Shown here piece by piece: positions 2,930 through 18,571 of a DNA stretch of 20,331 nt. The stretch covers positions 1 through 20,331 of the IMG/VR virus record IMGVR_UViG_3300042549_006714; one strand, written 5' to 3'. Source of the stretch: a virus. Every line of letters starts with the position of its first letter. Position 1 is the first letter of the stretch. The notes under the pieces were generated by a model that saw nothing but the letters and a program-made list of their open reading frames with translations, was not told where the DNA came from and did not search any database. Position numbers and translations under genes: made by a program.

Positions 2930-3457
2930 TCAGCCTCGCAAATTCGCTTCAGTGATGTAGTTGAAATTCAAAACCAGTCGTCGTTTCGCATCAGTGCAGC
3001 CGCGGCTGCTGTGCAACACGTTCGATGGGAAGATCACTAGTCGGTTCGCTTTAGATTGGGTGAAACTGCCATCTTCGAAAGCCGTACCACCGTTGTTGCT
3101 ATTCAGATAGAAGATGGCCGTAGTCATTGGCGATGTGTAATCAACATGCATGCCTGCATCCGATTGCGCGGCACAGACTGGATTTAGATTCGCTTTGCAT
3201 CTCAAAACAGCGATCGCTTCAAGGGTCACGATCAGAGGCATAATTTCTGACAGGTAATGCGATACTGGCACAGCGTCCCTGATGAACATGTGAGTGAACT
3301 GGAAATTGGTCAACGGGTTGCTAGGCGTTTCTTGGTCCCAACCGTTTATAGTATCGTTGAAATACCAGGGAAATTCGTTGCTTGACAAGAAATCGGCCAA
3401 CGGTTCGAATTGGGCTAGAGGAAGCCAATCGTCAAGGATTTTGATTTGCGGATTCAA
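2930..3457 (-). CDS. 2OG-Fe(II) dioxygenase (prolyl-4-hydroxylase-like)
   Basis: A 175-aa protein with the iron and 2-oxoglutarate residues in order: HVD (H104, D106), then LHSS (H149) and an Arg pair (R159/R160) in KRRLVLNFNY. The intervening AIFYLNSNNGGTAFEDG matches the usual P4H core strand-turn. Members oxidise proline, other side chains, nucleobases or small molecules using O2 and 2-oxoglutarate. Aquatic phages often carry one among their tail genes, where modification of tail or host proteins is suspected but rarely proven. The first usable codon is TTG at 3457, inside the previous gene (26-base overlap) and without a clear SD, so the start is uncertain by a few codons; no ATG or GTG lies close by. 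Confidence 0.85.
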   Translation of the reverse strand: MNPQIKILDDWLPLAQFEPLADFLSSNEFPWYFNDTINGWDQETPSNPLTNFQFTHMFIRDAVPVSHYLSEIMPLIVTLEAIAVLRCKANLNPVCAAQSDAGMHVDYTSPMTTAIFYLNSNNGGTAFEDGSFTQSKANRLVIFPSNVLHSSRGCTDAKRRLVLNFNYITEANLRG

Positions 3458-3836
3458 GCGGTTCCCAGTTCAAGAGTTCTTCATTCCAACTGTATTCCTG
3501 ATCAAACCCTGGGTACGGAACAGGAGATTCCCAAAGACAAGTTTGTTCGTTCAAATTCCAAGACTCAAACGGTTTGGGCGGTATAAAAGCATCACGGGTT
3601 CCGTCATAGGTGTAACCGATCCCAGCGTAATTCTTGCGAAACGCCTTAGACTGGTCATCAGCAGGCAACTGTGTTCGCGGATCGTAATAAACACCGCCAT
3701 GAGTGTTGTATGAAGTTTGTTTGTAAACTTCACCAGTCCGCATCGACAGTTCATCTTCTTTGCCGTCATCTTCATCACGGCCAACCAATACGATGATCAC
3801 AGTATTGTTTTCGTCAAGTTTGGCAAAATGGCTCAT
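3432..3836 (-). CDS. Conserved aquatic-phage protein of unknown function (KNYAGIGYTYD family)
   Basis: A 134-aa protein starting MSHFAKLDENN and containing YNTHGGVYYD, then FRKNYAGIGYTYDGTRDAF, then IPPKPFESWNLN and CLWESPVPYP. From memory this block pattern recurs in marine and freshwater phages, commonly near tail-fibre and oxygenase genes; I know of no established biochemical role. It is rich in aromatic and acidic residues and has no signal peptide or membrane segment. The ATG at 3836 overlaps the glycine-rich tail gene as ATGA. The position supports a tail-tip, chaperone or accessory virion role. Confidence 0.75.
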   Translation of the reverse strand: MSHFAKLDENNTVIIVLVGRDEDDGKEDELSMRTGEVYKQTSYNTHGGVYYDPRTQLPADDQSKAFRKNYAGIGYTYDGTRDAFIPPKPFESWNLNEQTCLWESPVPYPGFDQEYSWNEELLNWEPLESANQNP

Positions 3837-4774
3837 GCGAACGACACCGTTTCTGACGTTGTGCTAGTGGCCGTGATCGTGTAAATAGTGAAACCAGTGA
3901 CTGTCGACGATGTTTGGGTGACTCCACCGCTGAACGAAGCCACGAAAGGCGTGGACACTTTCAGGATAACGATTCCTGAACCACCATTGTACGCAGTCGT
4001 GCCAGCATAATGTGCACCGCCGCCACCGCCAGTATTCGCGCCACCAGCAGTCCCAGCACCGCCAGTTGAGCCTGGTTCACCGCCGCCTCCAGTTCCACCG
4101 TTACCGGCTTTAGCCGCTGGCTGTGCACCACCACCACCGCCACCGTAAGTTACTGAGGATCCGGTGATGTTAGATGCGGTTCCATTGCCCCCATTAGCGT
4201 CAGGGATGATATTGTTTGAACCTCTTTGAGTTGGACTTGCCCCTACCGCGCTAGTGCCACCACCCCCAGCACCACAACCAGCCCAGTTTGTGAACGATGT
4301 GCCACCATCTTGACCCTGACCCGCAGTGCCTAAACCACCACTTGTAGTGCCACCACCGTATCCGCCACCACCGCCGCACCCACCAGCGAGTCCAGTGGTT
4401 GTTCCTGTGCCACCGCCACCGCCTAGGGCAGTAATCACTCCGAATACAGAGTTATTGCCAGTAACCCCATTGTTGTTGGCGTTGGTTCCTCCTGCGCCGC
4501 CAGCACCTACAGTCACCGTGTAGTTGGTGCTAGTTGTTGGTCCTGCTGGGACCACCGCTGAAGTTCCACGGCCACTATTGTCTCCAGCATTGGAAGAAAT
4601 CAAACCACCAGCACCGCCACCGCCTCCACCAAAACTGGCTCTCGTGCCACCGCCGCCACCGCCACCCACAATTAGGTACATAACTTGCGGTACACCGCCA
4701 CCAGCGGCACCTGCTCGACCAAAATTTGAGATAGCGTCGCTAACACGCGTACGCTCACCATACCGTCCACTCAT
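3833..4774 (-). CDS. Glycine-rich tail tip / receptor-binding protein
   Basis: A 313-aa protein dominated by Gly runs. After a short start (MSGRYGERTRVSDAISNFGR) comes YLIVGGGGGGG, then a long series of Gly blocks broken by short polar loops, closing with GGSGIVILKV near residue 275 and a Thr/Ser-rich end (residues about 277-313). The YLIVGGGG...GIVILKV frame is characteristic of the glycine-rich domain of phage adhesins, in which polyglycine-II helices pack into a bundle that exposes variable loops to the receptor, as in T4-type gp38 adhesins. Only two Cys are visible. GAGGTGA lies upstream of the ATG. Its position among the last tail genes fits host recognition. The Gly/Ala codons make a strong strand bias that creates false proline-rich frames opposite. 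Confidence 0.8.
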   Translation of the reverse strand: MSGRYGERTRVSDAISNFGRAGAAGGGVPQVMYLIVGGGGGGGTRASFGGGGGGAGGLISSNAGDNSGRGTSAVVPAGPTTSTNYTVTVGAGGAGGTNANNNGVTGNNSVFGVITALGGGGGTGTTTGLAGGCGGGGGYGGGTTSGGLGTAGQGQDGGTSFTNWAGCGAGGGGTSAVGASPTQRGSNNIIPDANGGNGTASNITGSSVTYGGGGGGAQPAAKAGNGGTGGGGEPGSTGGAGTAGGANTGGGGGAHYAGTTAYNGGSGIVILKVSTPFVASFSGGVTQTSSTVTGFTIYTITATSTTSETVSFA

Positions 4775-15443: not shown

Positions 15444-16711
15444 GCACCTGGTGTCTGTAGTTGGACTGACAACTGCCCTGTGTGCACCAACCTGGTCATA
15501 TCGCCAGTGTTCACTGCATCTACAACTGACTGCGGATCGAAACCGCCATCCACCAAAACGCGAATAGTGTTGGCATCTTTCTGCTGAATTTCTGCGTTGT
15601 CAAGCACATCTTCTTGCAAGAATGACACATCGCGATCGTCGTACCACAACCGTGAACCACCATCCGGTGGTGGCACGAGATTCTGCAGACTTGCTGCAGC
15701 GGCACGCCACAAAGGTCTGATCGTCCCATCAGCGAACCGCCGCCTCGCTGCCGTGTAGTTGCCTGCGTTCAACGCAGACCCTGCCAAACCTTCAGAGATA
15801 CCTACGATCGAGGCCGGTACACCTGCTGCAGCAGCGATACGTGTTTCACCTGCACCTTGCACCGCTTTGAAAGCCAACTGTTCAAAATTCGCGCCAACTG
15901 TTTTCACGTCAGCCCCAGCACCAAGGTACAGGGTCTTGAACCCTTGTGCTGCACCACGATGTTGGTTGTTCATCTGTTCTTTGAACTTGTCGAACGCCTC
16001 ACGGCTGACACCAGGTTCAAACTTTACGACCAACTGCGGTGTCGCACTGTTGCGCAGAAACGCATGCTTATAGGTAGTGAGTTCTTGATCTGCAGTCACA
16101 TCAGGCAACACAGCGTGCAACCACGACACACCACGATATTGGTGTAATGGATCGGGCAGTGGCTTATAGTGGCACATCTCACTCGGTGTGAAAAACGCAG
16201 TTTCATTTTTGTGTTCGTCCATGTGCATATAGCCGACAAGCCGTTTCGCGTACGGCATGTTGGTCACATCGTCAATCACATCAGCAGTGGCGATCACAAC
16301 ATTCTGCGGATTGAGCCGCACAAGTTCATTGTTCCAACGCACCCAGTAGGAGTTGCCGTAAAGCGATACGTCAGTTTCCATCCGCGCGAGCAGATCACCA
16401 GTTGAAGCCGCCGGCCAAGGACGCTCAAGAATTGACAGTTCAGGTGTGCCGTACAATTCACCCGGTCTACCGGCAGACCAACGTTGGTAACTAAAACGCA
16501 CCTCACTGAACACCAAAAGACGCGCTGAGATACACGCCGCGACAATTGGATTACGTGCACCTTGCAGGGCGGTCAATTGCTCGAGATTGCCACTCGGCAC
16601 AATATACTGTTGGCCGTTGAAACCGAACGTTTCCCACAGTCGCAGGTAATCAGGCCAAGATAGTCCTGCGTCACGTGCCTCACTGCGTCGTTTTGTCAAA
16701 TTGCCAAGCAT
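15440..16711 (-). CDS. Portal protein (HK97 type)
   Basis: A 423-aa protein with the HK97-type portal pattern: NPIVAACISARLLVFSEVRFSY near residues 53-74, SILERPWPAASTGDLLARMETDVSLYGNSYW, then YRGVSWLHAVLPDVTADQELTTYKHAFLRNSATPQLVV, and FEQLAFKAVQGAGETRIAAAAGVP. Twelve copies form the vertex ring through which DNA is packaged and ejected and to which terminase docks. The length is at the short end of the family. The ATG at 16711 shares one base with the preceding stop (TGATG), and its own stop overlaps the protease start. Confidence 0.95.
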   Translation of the reverse strand: MLGNLTKRRSEARDAGLSWPDYLRLWETFGFNGQQYIVPSGNLEQLTALQGARNPIVAACISARLLVFSEVRFSYQRWSAGRPGELYGTPELSILERPWPAASTGDLLARMETDVSLYGNSYWVRWNNELVRLNPQNVVIATADVIDDVTNMPYAKRLVGYMHMDEHKNETAFFTPSEMCHYKPLPDPLHQYRGVSWLHAVLPDVTADQELTTYKHAFLRNSATPQLVVKFEPGVSREAFDKFKEQMNNQHRGAAQGFKTLYLGAGADVKTVGANFEQLAFKAVQGAGETRIAAAAGVPASIVGISEGLAGSALNAGNYTAARRRFADGTIRPLWRAAAASLQNLVPPPDGGSRLWYDDRDVSFLQEDVLDNAEIQQKDANTIRVLVDGGFDPQSVVDAVNTGDMTRLVHTGQLSVQLQTPGA

Positions 16712-17250
16712 CAGCCCACCTGATTTACAGTAAGAATCACTGACGGTACATTCGGTCGTGTCGGGGTTGTCAGATTTTCAAGTTTGAACAGCGACACCTC
16801 AGCATCAGCGGAGGACCATCTGATCTGGTAATAGTCACCAGCGGCTGCATCTACCAGCCAGTTCCAAGCAGCCACGATCTTCCCATTGTTACCCAACACC
16901 TGCAAAGTTGTGTTCGACCACGCGATATTGTTGTTGTTCTTCGCCAACCAAATATCGAGCGAATCGTCGCCGCTGTCAGTTTTCGTGAACTGCGCTGAAA
17001 ACTGAATATTGTATTTGCCTGCTGATGCGATAGTGATTTGGCTGTTGCTGACGATCGACACCCCGTTGGCGAAATCGGTGTTGTTGAATGTCATATTGTT
17101 GACCTGGTTAGCACCAGCATTAGCCTGATTCGCACTTGAGAAGAAACTGCCACAATAACCGGTGATCCCACCACCCACCGGACCTTGAGGCCCAGGAGAA
17201 GTGACAGTTACTCCTGTGTTCGTTTCAGTGACGGTTACAGTTGTGCTCAT
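16711..17250 (-). CDS. C1q/TNF-like jelly-roll virion protein with a collagen-like start
   Basis: A 179-aa protein. Residues 1-18 are Thr/Val-rich (STTVTVTETNTGVTVTS). A very short collagen-like stretch follows (PGPQGPVGGG), then a domain with the strand pattern of C1q/TNF-type trimers: GVSIVSNSQITIASAGKYNIQFSAQF, DDSLDIWLAKNNNNIAWSNT, DYYQIRWSSADAEVSLF, and a final VPSVILTVNQVG. Such domains form trimeric heads on phage fibres or capsid decorations. It sits between terminase and portal, away from the tail genes, so a capsid decoration is as likely as a fibre. The ATG at 17250 overlaps the upstream stop as ATGA. Confidence 0.7.
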   Translation of the reverse strand: MSTTVTVTETNTGVTVTSPGPQGPVGGGITGYCGSFFSSANQANAGANQVNNMTFNNTDFANGVSIVSNSQITIASAGKYNIQFSAQFTKTDSGDDSLDIWLAKNNNNIAWSNTTLQVLGNNGKIVAAWNWLVDAAAGDYYQIRWSSADAEVSLFKLENLTTPTRPNVPSVILTVNQVG

Positions 17251-17597
17251 CGTGTCACCTCAGGGCGCACCAAGAAAGTACCCATAACCAGTCGTGTCAC
17301 CGTTACGCCTTGCACCAACTCTAGATCATAAACATATTGGCCATCATCGACGTTGACCATATCGGCAGCGGCTACATTCAAAGTGATCGTCCCTGCAGCA
17401 CCACCCAAAGTCACCCTGCCGTTCTCAGTTGTCAACGATAATGCGACAGTATCAGCAGCAGGGACAGTACGTACCGCCATCCGCGCTGTATAGCCAGTCA
17501 AATTGACCAAAGCACCACTTGAATCTTTATAGGTCAACACCAGGCTGAAAGTTGCCCCTTGATCAGCGATCATATTGTAAGTACCTGCGGTTGCCAT
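17247..17597 (-). CDS. Small beta-rich probable virion protein (116 aa)
   Basis: A 116-aa product from ATG 17597, which shares one base with the stop of the small membrane gene. It contains GATFSLVLTYKDSSGALVNLTGYTARMAVRT, then a strand-rich core (RVTLGGAAGTITLNVAAADM) and YVYDLELVQGVTVTRLVMGTFLVRPEVTR. The Q-GATF-lv-ltyk...G-p-v-LTGYTArm-vR pattern is one I associate with an Ig-like or baseplate BppU-N-like domain found in many phage virion proteins. It is followed directly by the C1q-like gene, so the two probably form one structure, for instance a stalk-binding and a head component. A TTG three bases upstream (17600) could also start it. Confidence 0.6.
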   Translation of the reverse strand: MATAGTYNMIADQGATFSLVLTYKDSSGALVNLTGYTARMAVRTVPAADTVALSLTTENGRVTLGGAAGTITLNVAAADMVNVDDGQYVYDLELVQGVTVTRLVMGTFLVRPEVTR

Positions 17598-17746
17598 CAA
17601 CTATCACCACGTTCAACAGCAACACCAAACATAATCAAACCTGCGGCCAAAACCAAACCGCCAGTAGTCAAATTGATAGATGCTGCACTGATGGCAGCCA
17701 CCAACACACCAGCCGCTTGCAGTGTTGTCGCAACCTTCTGCCGCAC
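17597..17746 (-). CDS. 49-residue two-helix membrane peptide
   Basis: The 150-base space between the polytopic membrane gene and the beta-rich gene is an open frame: GTG at 17746 to TGA at 17597, 49 residues. GAGG lies four bases before the GTG, and its stop overlaps the next ATG as TGATG. After a basic start (MRQKVATTLQ) there are two hydrophobic stretches, AAGVLVAAISAASI and GLVLAAGLIMFGVAV, separated by a polar turn (NLTTG), then a charged end (ERGDS). It looks like a hairpin membrane protein. Possible roles include holin-like, superinfection-exclusion or partner of the neighbouring membrane protein. None is shown by the sequence. Confidence 0.7.
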   Translation of the reverse strand: MRQKVATTLQAAGVLVAAISAASINLTTGGLVLAAGLIMFGVAVERGDS

Positions 17747-17752
17747 GAAACC

Positions 17753-18571
17753 TCAGATCAAAACAGGTCGCCGCCACCAAACCACGTGGACTGCGACAGC
17801 CAACCACAACCAATTCACCGGTATCTGTTCCACCGCCGCCAATGACACCGGCACACCAGCAGCAGTATGTAGTAACCGTACAGTGTCAGTTGCCACCAGC
17901 AACTGCATATACGCCACCATCACACACAATAGCACAGGTAGCGAGATATCAACCAGCGACAGTAAACCAACACCCCAAGGTGCGACCATCACCCAACCAT
18001 CACGCCACTGTATACGATGAGCCTCTAAAGCACTGCGCACAGGATGATCGTGAACGTACCGCAAATCATCTCGAGCAGTGACCTCATCAACCTGTGGTTT
18101 CACCACCAAACCACGTACAGCAGGAACTAGTAAACCGGCTAAGAAGATAGGATGCCAAGCCCACAACGCCGCCCACACCGGCATTGACTCCTTACCCAAC
18201 GCCGCCGCCACCAACAACACACCAGCAGCCACTGGTAAATCAGCCTGCCAGCACACCACCGCACCTAAACCTAAAACCATTGACGGTAGATCAACCCCAA
18301 CAGGACGGACAACAGCAGGGCCGAAAACACCAGGCAAAGCCAACAGAACTGCAGCCGCTGCCAACGACCTTTCCCAATCTGCGCCCTGTTGCCAACTGTA
18401 CAGCCACATCAAACCGAACAGGGCAGGCCAAGAACACACCCATACGATATGCCACTTGCGGATGTCGTCTTCACAGATGAACGGCCATAACCACCGCAGG
18501 TGGAATGGACGTGCCACAGGTAAACCGCGACCAGCCAACAGATATCTTGCAGCGTCAGGTCCGATCCTCAT
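17753..18571 (-). CDS. Polytopic membrane protein, GT-C glycosyltransferase-like
   Basis: Read from ATG 18571, which overlaps the terminase stop as ATGA, this is a 272-aa very hydrophobic protein with about seven or eight likely membrane segments (roughly 41-60, 69-88, 96-108, 112-125, 130-150, 193-207, 209-226, 253-268). Residues 1-30 read DAARYLLAGRGLPVARPFHLR, like the first periplasmic loop of bacterial GT-C enzymes. VGVDLPSMVLGLGAVVCW, then AALGKESMPVWAALW (G126-S129), and ATDTVRLLH (D229, R232) match further family positions. Typical GT-Cs are longer and have a membrane helix before the loop, so this looks shortened. A polyprenyl-sugar transferase is inferred, low to moderate certainty; an unrelated membrane protein remains possible. 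A GTG at 18586 is an alternative start. Confidence 0.6.
   Translation of the reverse strand: MRIGPDAARYLLAGRGLPVARPFHLRWLWPFICEDDIRKWHIVWVCSWPALFGLMWLYSWQQGADWERSLAAAAVLLALPGVFGPAVVRPVGVDLPSMVLGLGAVVCWQADLPVAAGVLLVAAALGKESMPVWAALWAWHPIFLAGLLVPAVRGLVVKPQVDEVTARDDLRYVHDHPVRSALEAHRIQWRDGWVMVAPWGVGLLSLVDISLPVLLCVMVAYMQLLVATDTVRLLHTAAGVPVSLAAVEQIPVNWLWLAVAVHVVWWRRPVLI

Follow-up and report, generated by a model that had tools for sequence, protein, structure and literature searches.

The virus record IMGVR_UViG_3300042549_006714 of IMG/VR comprises 20,331 bases and was analysed over its whole length (hereafter the window). Its late operon lies on the minus strand, on which all window genes named below are located, and the terminase gene terL (19986-18568; Pfam Terminase_6N E 5e-8, phrog_9 E 4e-64) and the portal gene (16711-15440; Pfam Phage_portal E 5e-33) form the upstream and downstream boundaries of an interval with four further open reading frames (ORFs). 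These encode, in order, a GT-C-like membrane protein of 272 amino acids (aa), here called MP (18571-17753), a membrane peptide of 49 aa (p49, 17746-17597), an LtfC-like beta-sandwich protein of the tail-fibre attachment or assembly class (17600-17247; phrog_1084 E 8e-26, phrog_3304 E 4e-13) and a C1q-like short fibre (17250-16711; BclA_C E 4e-4, below the Pfam cut-off). From TerL to portal, the junctions are an overlap of 4 nucleotides (nt), a gap of 6 nt, two overlaps of 4 nt and one overlap of 1 nt, in agreement with the close joining of the four genes described in an earlier reading made from the sequence alone (the sequence-only reading). Head, connector and tail genes follow the portal in the usual order. 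Genes were called as mechanical ORFs backed by hidden Markov model (HMM) matches. The four ORFs are real genes and not chance ORFs, because homologues exist for them: MP is 75% identical over its full length, and the LtfC-like protein 58% identical, to the counterparts in contig L005, and p49 and the C1q-like protein each belong to families. The interval consists of three separate things that abut, namely p49, a tail-fibre locus made of the LtfC-like and C1q-like genes, and MP, whose likely partner is GT2, a glycosyltransferase gene behind the capsid gene. GT2 is the probable functional partner of MP, and in the reading that we favour the two would form a late glycan-modification pair, separate from p49 and from the tail-fibre locus; we consider this reading probable, with reservations given below.

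The searches recovered homologues of MP from 45 contigs of viruses or phages, and later also from L156; within the phage collection, the distant GX15bay is the only one with such a homologue. The relatives are metagenomic contigs, many of them fragmentary, and the scans reach only relatives having short peptide patterns in common with the query; several contigs with MP are near-identical, and counts are therefore also given as clusters. Forty-one of the 45 contigs, representing 27 clusters at 90% MP identity, have a gene for GT2 directly upstream of MP, and in 34 of these 41 the two genes overlap or are at most 25 nt apart. The contigs without GT2 directly ahead of MP are L005, which is of the window type, L043 and GX15bay, which are both distant, and one truncated contig. 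The genes have a conserved order: capsid, a small ORF that is not present in all contigs, GT2, MP and connector. This cassette often includes further glycosyltransferases and methyltransferases (O-methyltransferases), such as the methyltransferase (E 6e-13) and the second GT2 of L025. The position behind the capsid is also common for GT2 in general, which follows the capsid gene at a distance of at most 1.5 kb in 72 out of 80 GT2 loci.

In the window, GT2 (12334-11108; phrog_34859 E 1e-20) encodes a predicted soluble GT-A glycosyltransferase, and is found between the genes for the major capsid protein (13951-12557; Pfam Phage_capsid E 2e-31) and the head-tail connector-like protein HTC1 (11098-10484; assigned from its position and its HMM family across loci), which bound the cassette upstream and downstream. 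Similar to L155 and L156, GT2 of the window is still behind the capsid gene, the connector gene follows after 9-12 nt (9 nt in the window), and MP stands beside TerL, 5.4 kb from GT2 in the window. With such a short gap between GT2 and HTC1, the usual slot of MP is empty in the window clade.

The histories of the genes differ. In the MP tree, the window, L005 and L156 group together (support 100/98) within a clade of 13 rows (95/96) that includes L006, L007, L022 and L026, while L048, L049, L065, L069 and L073 fall outside. In the GT2 and TerL trees, the same three members of the window clade join L048 (100/99 and 98/95, respectively). Window MP is about 50-59% identical to the group of L006, L007, L022 and L026 and 37% identical to L048, and the window TerL is 68% identical to that of L048. 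Because the MP tree conflicts with the GT2 and TerL trees, MP was acquired separately by a genome that already bore GT2; according to these trees, the window clade kept GT2 vertically and took MP horizontally from another phage lineage. Relocation of MP within its own genome is rejected on the same disagreement. The regain of MP at another site suggests that the pairing with GT2 matters functionally, with a dependence between the two that is hidden from gene order.

The AlphaFold2 (AF2) model of window GT2 has a predicted local distance difference test (pLDDT) score of 80.6. Comparison with Foldseek gave 265 PDB matches at E<=0.001, and among the matches listed nearly all are GT-A glycosyltransferases, including COLGALT1 (E 1e-9), STIV A197 (E 1e-8), LH3, mimivirus R699 and GalNAc transferases. 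The motifs DxD (D104, D106), E222-D223 and H247xK249 are invariant. The predicted protein has the fold, the DxD motif and the catalytic acid pair that mark a GT-A enzyme. A second glycosyltransferase domain, complete in L048 and L107, is truncated in the C-terminal part of the window protein, and this shortened domain may be inactive.

MP was predicted with AF2 on 32 homologues, with a pLDDT of 93.7. In the Foldseek search of the PDB with this model, GT-C enzymes fill at least 11 of the top 13 places, none of them individually significant, and the matched folds comprise OST/STT3, ALG6, ALG9, ALG12, AglB, PglB, AftA and EmbC; the GT-C resemblance of this polytopic protein, proposed earlier, is thereby supported. 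The search of PDB sequences with a profile of the MP alignment returned no credible match. In enzymes of the GT-CA class, the catalytic Asp is located at the tip of the first of two juxtamembrane helices, which lie between the transmembrane helices TM1 and TM2 (PMC12041299). Similarly, the MP model possesses a helix at residues 5-14 that begins at D6, a helix at 28-33 and a transmembrane helix at 37-61; the tip of the first juxtamembrane helix is thus occupied by D6, a catalytic-type Asp. This Asp is kept in all complete MP sequences compared, including the cellular homologues and L048 with an upstream start. Other conserved residues in an alignment of 34 sequences are R26, D94, K/R-E128 and TD229xxR232, and alignment A2 shows D94, E128, D229 and R232 without variation.

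As modelled, MP further resembles the GT-CA class (AftB, AftA, EmbC, ALG6, PglB) in its pair of juxtamembrane helices ahead of TM2, in another invariant Asp that follows TM3 and in a putative core of the seven-helix type. However, it has only 272 aa, no periplasmic or C-terminal domain and no detectable sequence similarity to this class, and its phage members lack TM1, since only 2-11 residues precede the PDxxRY-type motif. A hydrophobic TM1 is present only in the cellular homologues and in the distant L043; the homologue of GX15bay has 34 residues before the motif, which are not clearly hydrophobic. Because TM1 before the catalytic Asp is missing, MP is better described as predicted to work like a GT-CA glycosyltransferase than as a full member of the class. 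Based on the model, we regard it as a minimal predicted GT-C-type membrane glycosyltransferase. It would be an unusually small candidate GT-C enzyme, and it allows a direct test of whether the orientation of a GT-C protein can change.

Cellular homologues of MP were detected in 5 of 299 Streptosporangiales genomes; a further 395 genomes, sampled from elsewhere in the phylum, had none. From the homologues, the host of the phage is presumably actinobacterial. Near the MP homologue of L129, genes for UbiA (decaprenyl-phosphate phosphoribosyltransferase, E 2e-81), DprE2 (E 2e-100) and DprE1 (E 3e-149, borderline against the curated cut-off) were identified, and UbiA, DprE1 and DprE2 are likewise located beside the MP homologue of L312; in both loci, these neighbours amount to a decaprenyl-phospho-arabinose operon. 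Such genes also occur with the three-component pentofuranose glycosylation systems (PMC11127046). By this analogy, the cellular context points to a polyprenyl-phospho-pentose donor for MP, as context and not as proof. In three cellular loci, a carbamoyltransferase and a Gfo/Idh dehydrogenase adjoin the MP homologue. In the chromosomes of L129, L131 and L313, genes for a luciferase-like oxidoreductase, a Gfo/Idh dehydrogenase, an MP-like protein and a NodU-type carbamoyltransferase form a conserved cluster, which possibly represents an undescribed glycan or natural-product pathway.

The genes for TerL and portal are usually adjacent, as the sequence-only reading had stated: the gap between them is below 400 nt in 110 of the 115 loci having TerL and the same portal family. 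It is 1.86 kb in the window, and exceeds 5 kb only in L005/L047 (one contig) and in L156. These contigs are also the nearest relatives of the window and share with it the order TerL, MP, p49 and LtfC-like gene. With an iterative HMM search, p49 was detected in 97 of 128 loci, mostly loci retrieved for TerL or MP. Its end is at most 250 nt from the end of TerL in 110 of 114 loci with both genes, so within this phage group p49 ordinarily occupies the space between TerL and portal, and it stands outside any accessory unit. The four exceptions are L002, L005 and L047 (one contig) and L156, where MP intervenes between TerL and p49. DUF1056, from a gene of Sfi21-type phages located between TerL and portal, was considered as the family of p49; it gave E 0.07 with the window p49 and was absent from its homologues, and the assignment is not claimed.

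The LtfC-like and C1q-like genes are a tail-fibre locus, inserted between p49 and portal in one small clade. The LtfC-like protein had been read as BppU/Ig-like, an identity that we replace, given that neither the Pfam search nor the profile search of the PDB found a BppU match at E<=10. Its match phrog_3304 is annotated as 'L-shaped tail fiber assembly', and the profile search of the PDB retrieved 26dk_M ('Structural protein', E 3e-12) and 8hqz_Q ('L-shaped tail fiber assembly', E 0.1). Pfam LtfC is weakly matched by the counterpart in L156 (E 0.005, below the cut-off). Among the homologues, those of cyanophages, pelagiphages and a Microbacterium phage bear annotations as tail-fibre, tail-fibre assembly or minor tail protein, and those of Streptomyces phages are labelled hypothetical. 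The C1q-like protein has the N-terminal segment VTVTETN..SPGPQGPVG, in which the collagen stalk is reduced to GPQGPVG, and continues with a C1q/BclA_C-like tip (20.7 bits against a cut-off of 38). Its family comprises fibre tips joined to many different N-terminal parts, and one member, in L135 (alignment A6), matches both Collagen (E 1e-7) and BclA_C (E 7e-5). The C1q-like fold class of the sequence-only reading finds some support in the weak BclA_C match, and a fibre nature is supported for both beta-rich proteins, which that reading had taken for apparent virion proteins. In L155 and L156, the position of the C1q-like gene is occupied by collagen-like proteins of 797 and 482 aa with a similar N-terminus (collagen match of the L156 protein E 4e-70), followed by Gly-rich, fibre-assembly-like and GT2 genes. 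Phage collagen-like fibres of the EPclA type (PMC3368898), together with the trimeric BclA_C/C1q tip, resemble the window fibre in having a collagen-type stalk, a C-terminal tip of the trimeric-fibre class (putative in the window) and an LtfC-like neighbour, but the window fibre differs in its minimal stalk and in its location between TerL and portal.

Some observations concern the surroundings of these fibre genes. In the closest relatives of the window, a second, different GT2 is located just upstream of the portal, namely in L155 (5152-5973; Pfam Glycos_transf_2 E 6e-16), L156 (5156-5956) and L157 (3227-4030); it adjoins the collagen-like and Gly-rich fibre genes, and is absent from the corresponding place in the window. 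At the tail end, the window possesses a gene for a Gly-rich tail protein (3833-4774; Pfam Gly_rich_2 E 5e-16), and similar Gly-rich proteins are encoded upstream of the portal in L155, L156 and L157. Because of these two locations, fibre genes seem to move between the tail end and the site upstream of the portal.

According to the mechanism that we propose, GT2, as a GT-A enzyme, would use a nucleotide-sugar donor late in infection, and MP, as a GT-C enzyme, would use a polyprenyl-phosphate-sugar donor, probably a host decaprenyl-phospho-pentose. Both would act in one glycan-building pathway, often with the extra glycosyltransferases and O-methyltransferases of the cassette. With MP in the canonical orientation, the action would take place at the outer face, and a host envelope glycan would be the likelier acceptor, as a surface modification against re-adsorption or superinfection; with MP facing the cytoplasm, the virion would be the likelier acceptor. 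The general idea of glycan modification, already raised in the sequence-only reading, is retained by way of GT2 and MP, but not its coupling to the set of four genes. In place of a four-gene system stands a testable pair, in which a GT-A enzyme of the phage is joined by a minimal GT-C-like protein without TM1; the two genes are linked in 41 contigs.

Several points weigh against this reading. GT2 is common without MP (78 of 80 GT2 loci have none), and it therefore has a job of its own. The nearest folds of GT2 are protein glycosyltransferases and not dolichol-phosphate-sugar synthases. Inspection by eye of the interval between GT2 and HTC1 revealed no ORF for a GtrA-like flippase in the loci examined, p49 being too small for a flippase and unlinked to GT2, and no polyprenyl-phosphate glycosyltransferase was recognisable in the cassette. 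MP matches no family of Pfam, PHROGs or NCBIfam above cut-off, and its GT-C matches in Foldseek have a best probability of 0.95 with E 0.3-2. The missing TM1 makes the membrane orientation of MP uncertain. In L311/L312, a Nudix-like gene separates DprE2 from the MP homologue, so that the adjacency of the two is no proof of a common function. As an alternative, MP may be a non-catalytic derivative of GT-C enzymes, serving for example as membrane anchor of GT2 or as a superinfection-exclusion protein with polyprenyl-phosphate or an envelope enzyme as its binding partner. The loss of TM1, the minimal size, the lack of a variable or soluble periplasmic domain and of an obvious donor synthase or flippase in the phage context agree with such a role. 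Nevertheless, we hold it to be quite unlikely, since the conservation of the catalytic-type Asp in every complete sequence compared, and of the invariant D94, E128, D229 and R232, fits an active enzyme.

The acceptor could also be the virion itself, with GT2, the methyltransferases and MP decorating capsid or fibre proteins and the active side of the TM1-less MP in the cytoplasm, where virion proteins fold. The location of the cassette between capsid and connector, with GT2 close behind the capsid gene in most loci, is consistent with this, as are the best folds of GT2 (COLGALT1, LH3, STIV A197) and the absence of TM1 from phage MPs when cellular homologues and L043 have it. Glycans on capsid and tail-tube proteins of mycobacteriophages are, moreover, mentioned in two papers (PMC11256854, PMC12619734). 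Yet the loop charges show no inversion: the catalytic-side loops hold 8.4 Lys and Arg in the TM1-less and 8.8 in the TM1-bearing proteins, and the count of the other side rises from 5.8 to 7.2 in this comparison, so the charges leave the orientation unsettled. Virion glycosylation does not require a GT-C enzyme, and to our knowledge all characterised GT-C enzymes act on the outer or luminal face. We judge virion glycosylation unlikely. A further proposal, that deletion of TM1 turned an outward-facing GT-C protein towards the cytoplasm, so that MP with GT2 and the methyltransferases decorates virion proteins from inner-leaflet polyprenyl-phosphate sugars, seems very unlikely. The sequence-only reading had taken MP, p49, the LtfC-like and the C1q-like protein as one functional unit, which would couple glycan modification or exclusion to a decoration protein, and the tight overlaps and the order common to three related contigs would agree with that. 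However, overlaps of this kind are usual in the late operon, including those of TerL with MP and of C1q with portal, and the gene trees conflict. The genes also occur independently, an outcome that the sequence-only reading itself had named as refuting its proposal: p49 lacks the other three in nearly all relatives, MP stands behind GT2 in 41 contigs away from LtfC-like and C1q-like genes, and these two are found without MP, as direct neighbours in Limnohabitans phage DC31 and close together in L135, L136 and L151. In L005 and L156, several fibre genes in a row and a collagen-like protein take the place of the C1q-like gene. As a conserved unit the set of four is refuted, and we give hardly any credence to the four-gene unit.

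Compared with known systems, the favoured pair of GT2 and MP is similar to the three-component systems for extracytoplasmic glycosylation, of the Gtr type (GtrA/GtrB/Gtr) and for pentofuranose (PMC11127046), in combining a GT2 enzyme with a GT-C enzyme, and the cellular MP homologues share with the latter the neighbours DprE1, DprE2 and UbiA. In contrast to these systems, no flippase was found for the phage pair, the phage GT2 is predicted to be soluble with fold neighbours like those of protein glycosyltransferases, and the cassette is located at late head genes and not at a lysogenic-conversion locus. Virion glycosylation in mycobacteriophages (Freeman et al. 2023, as described in the citing papers PMC11256854 and PMC12619734) likewise involves phage-encoded glycosyltransferases, with glycans on capsid and tail-tube subunits. 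As far as these citing papers describe it, that system differs in that its glycosyltransferases are encoded near the genome end and a GT-C-like membrane partner is not mentioned.

Further genes were recognised at the far end of the window. The product of 2930-3457 is 2OG-Fe(II) dioxygenase-like (Pfam 2OG-FeII_Oxy_3 E 3e-5, just below the cut-off). The adjoining gene at 2410-2928 has no match itself, but by eye resembles the 2OG-FeII oxygenase of L157 (2607-3230, E 2e-15), and is possibly a decayed hydroxylase; in L157, the oxygenase gene is flanked by fibre genes on one side and a GT2 on the other. The gene at 1835-2413 encodes a VanY/M15 peptidase (E 2e-14), a likely endolysin, and the one at 72-1175 appears metallophosphoesterase-like by eye.

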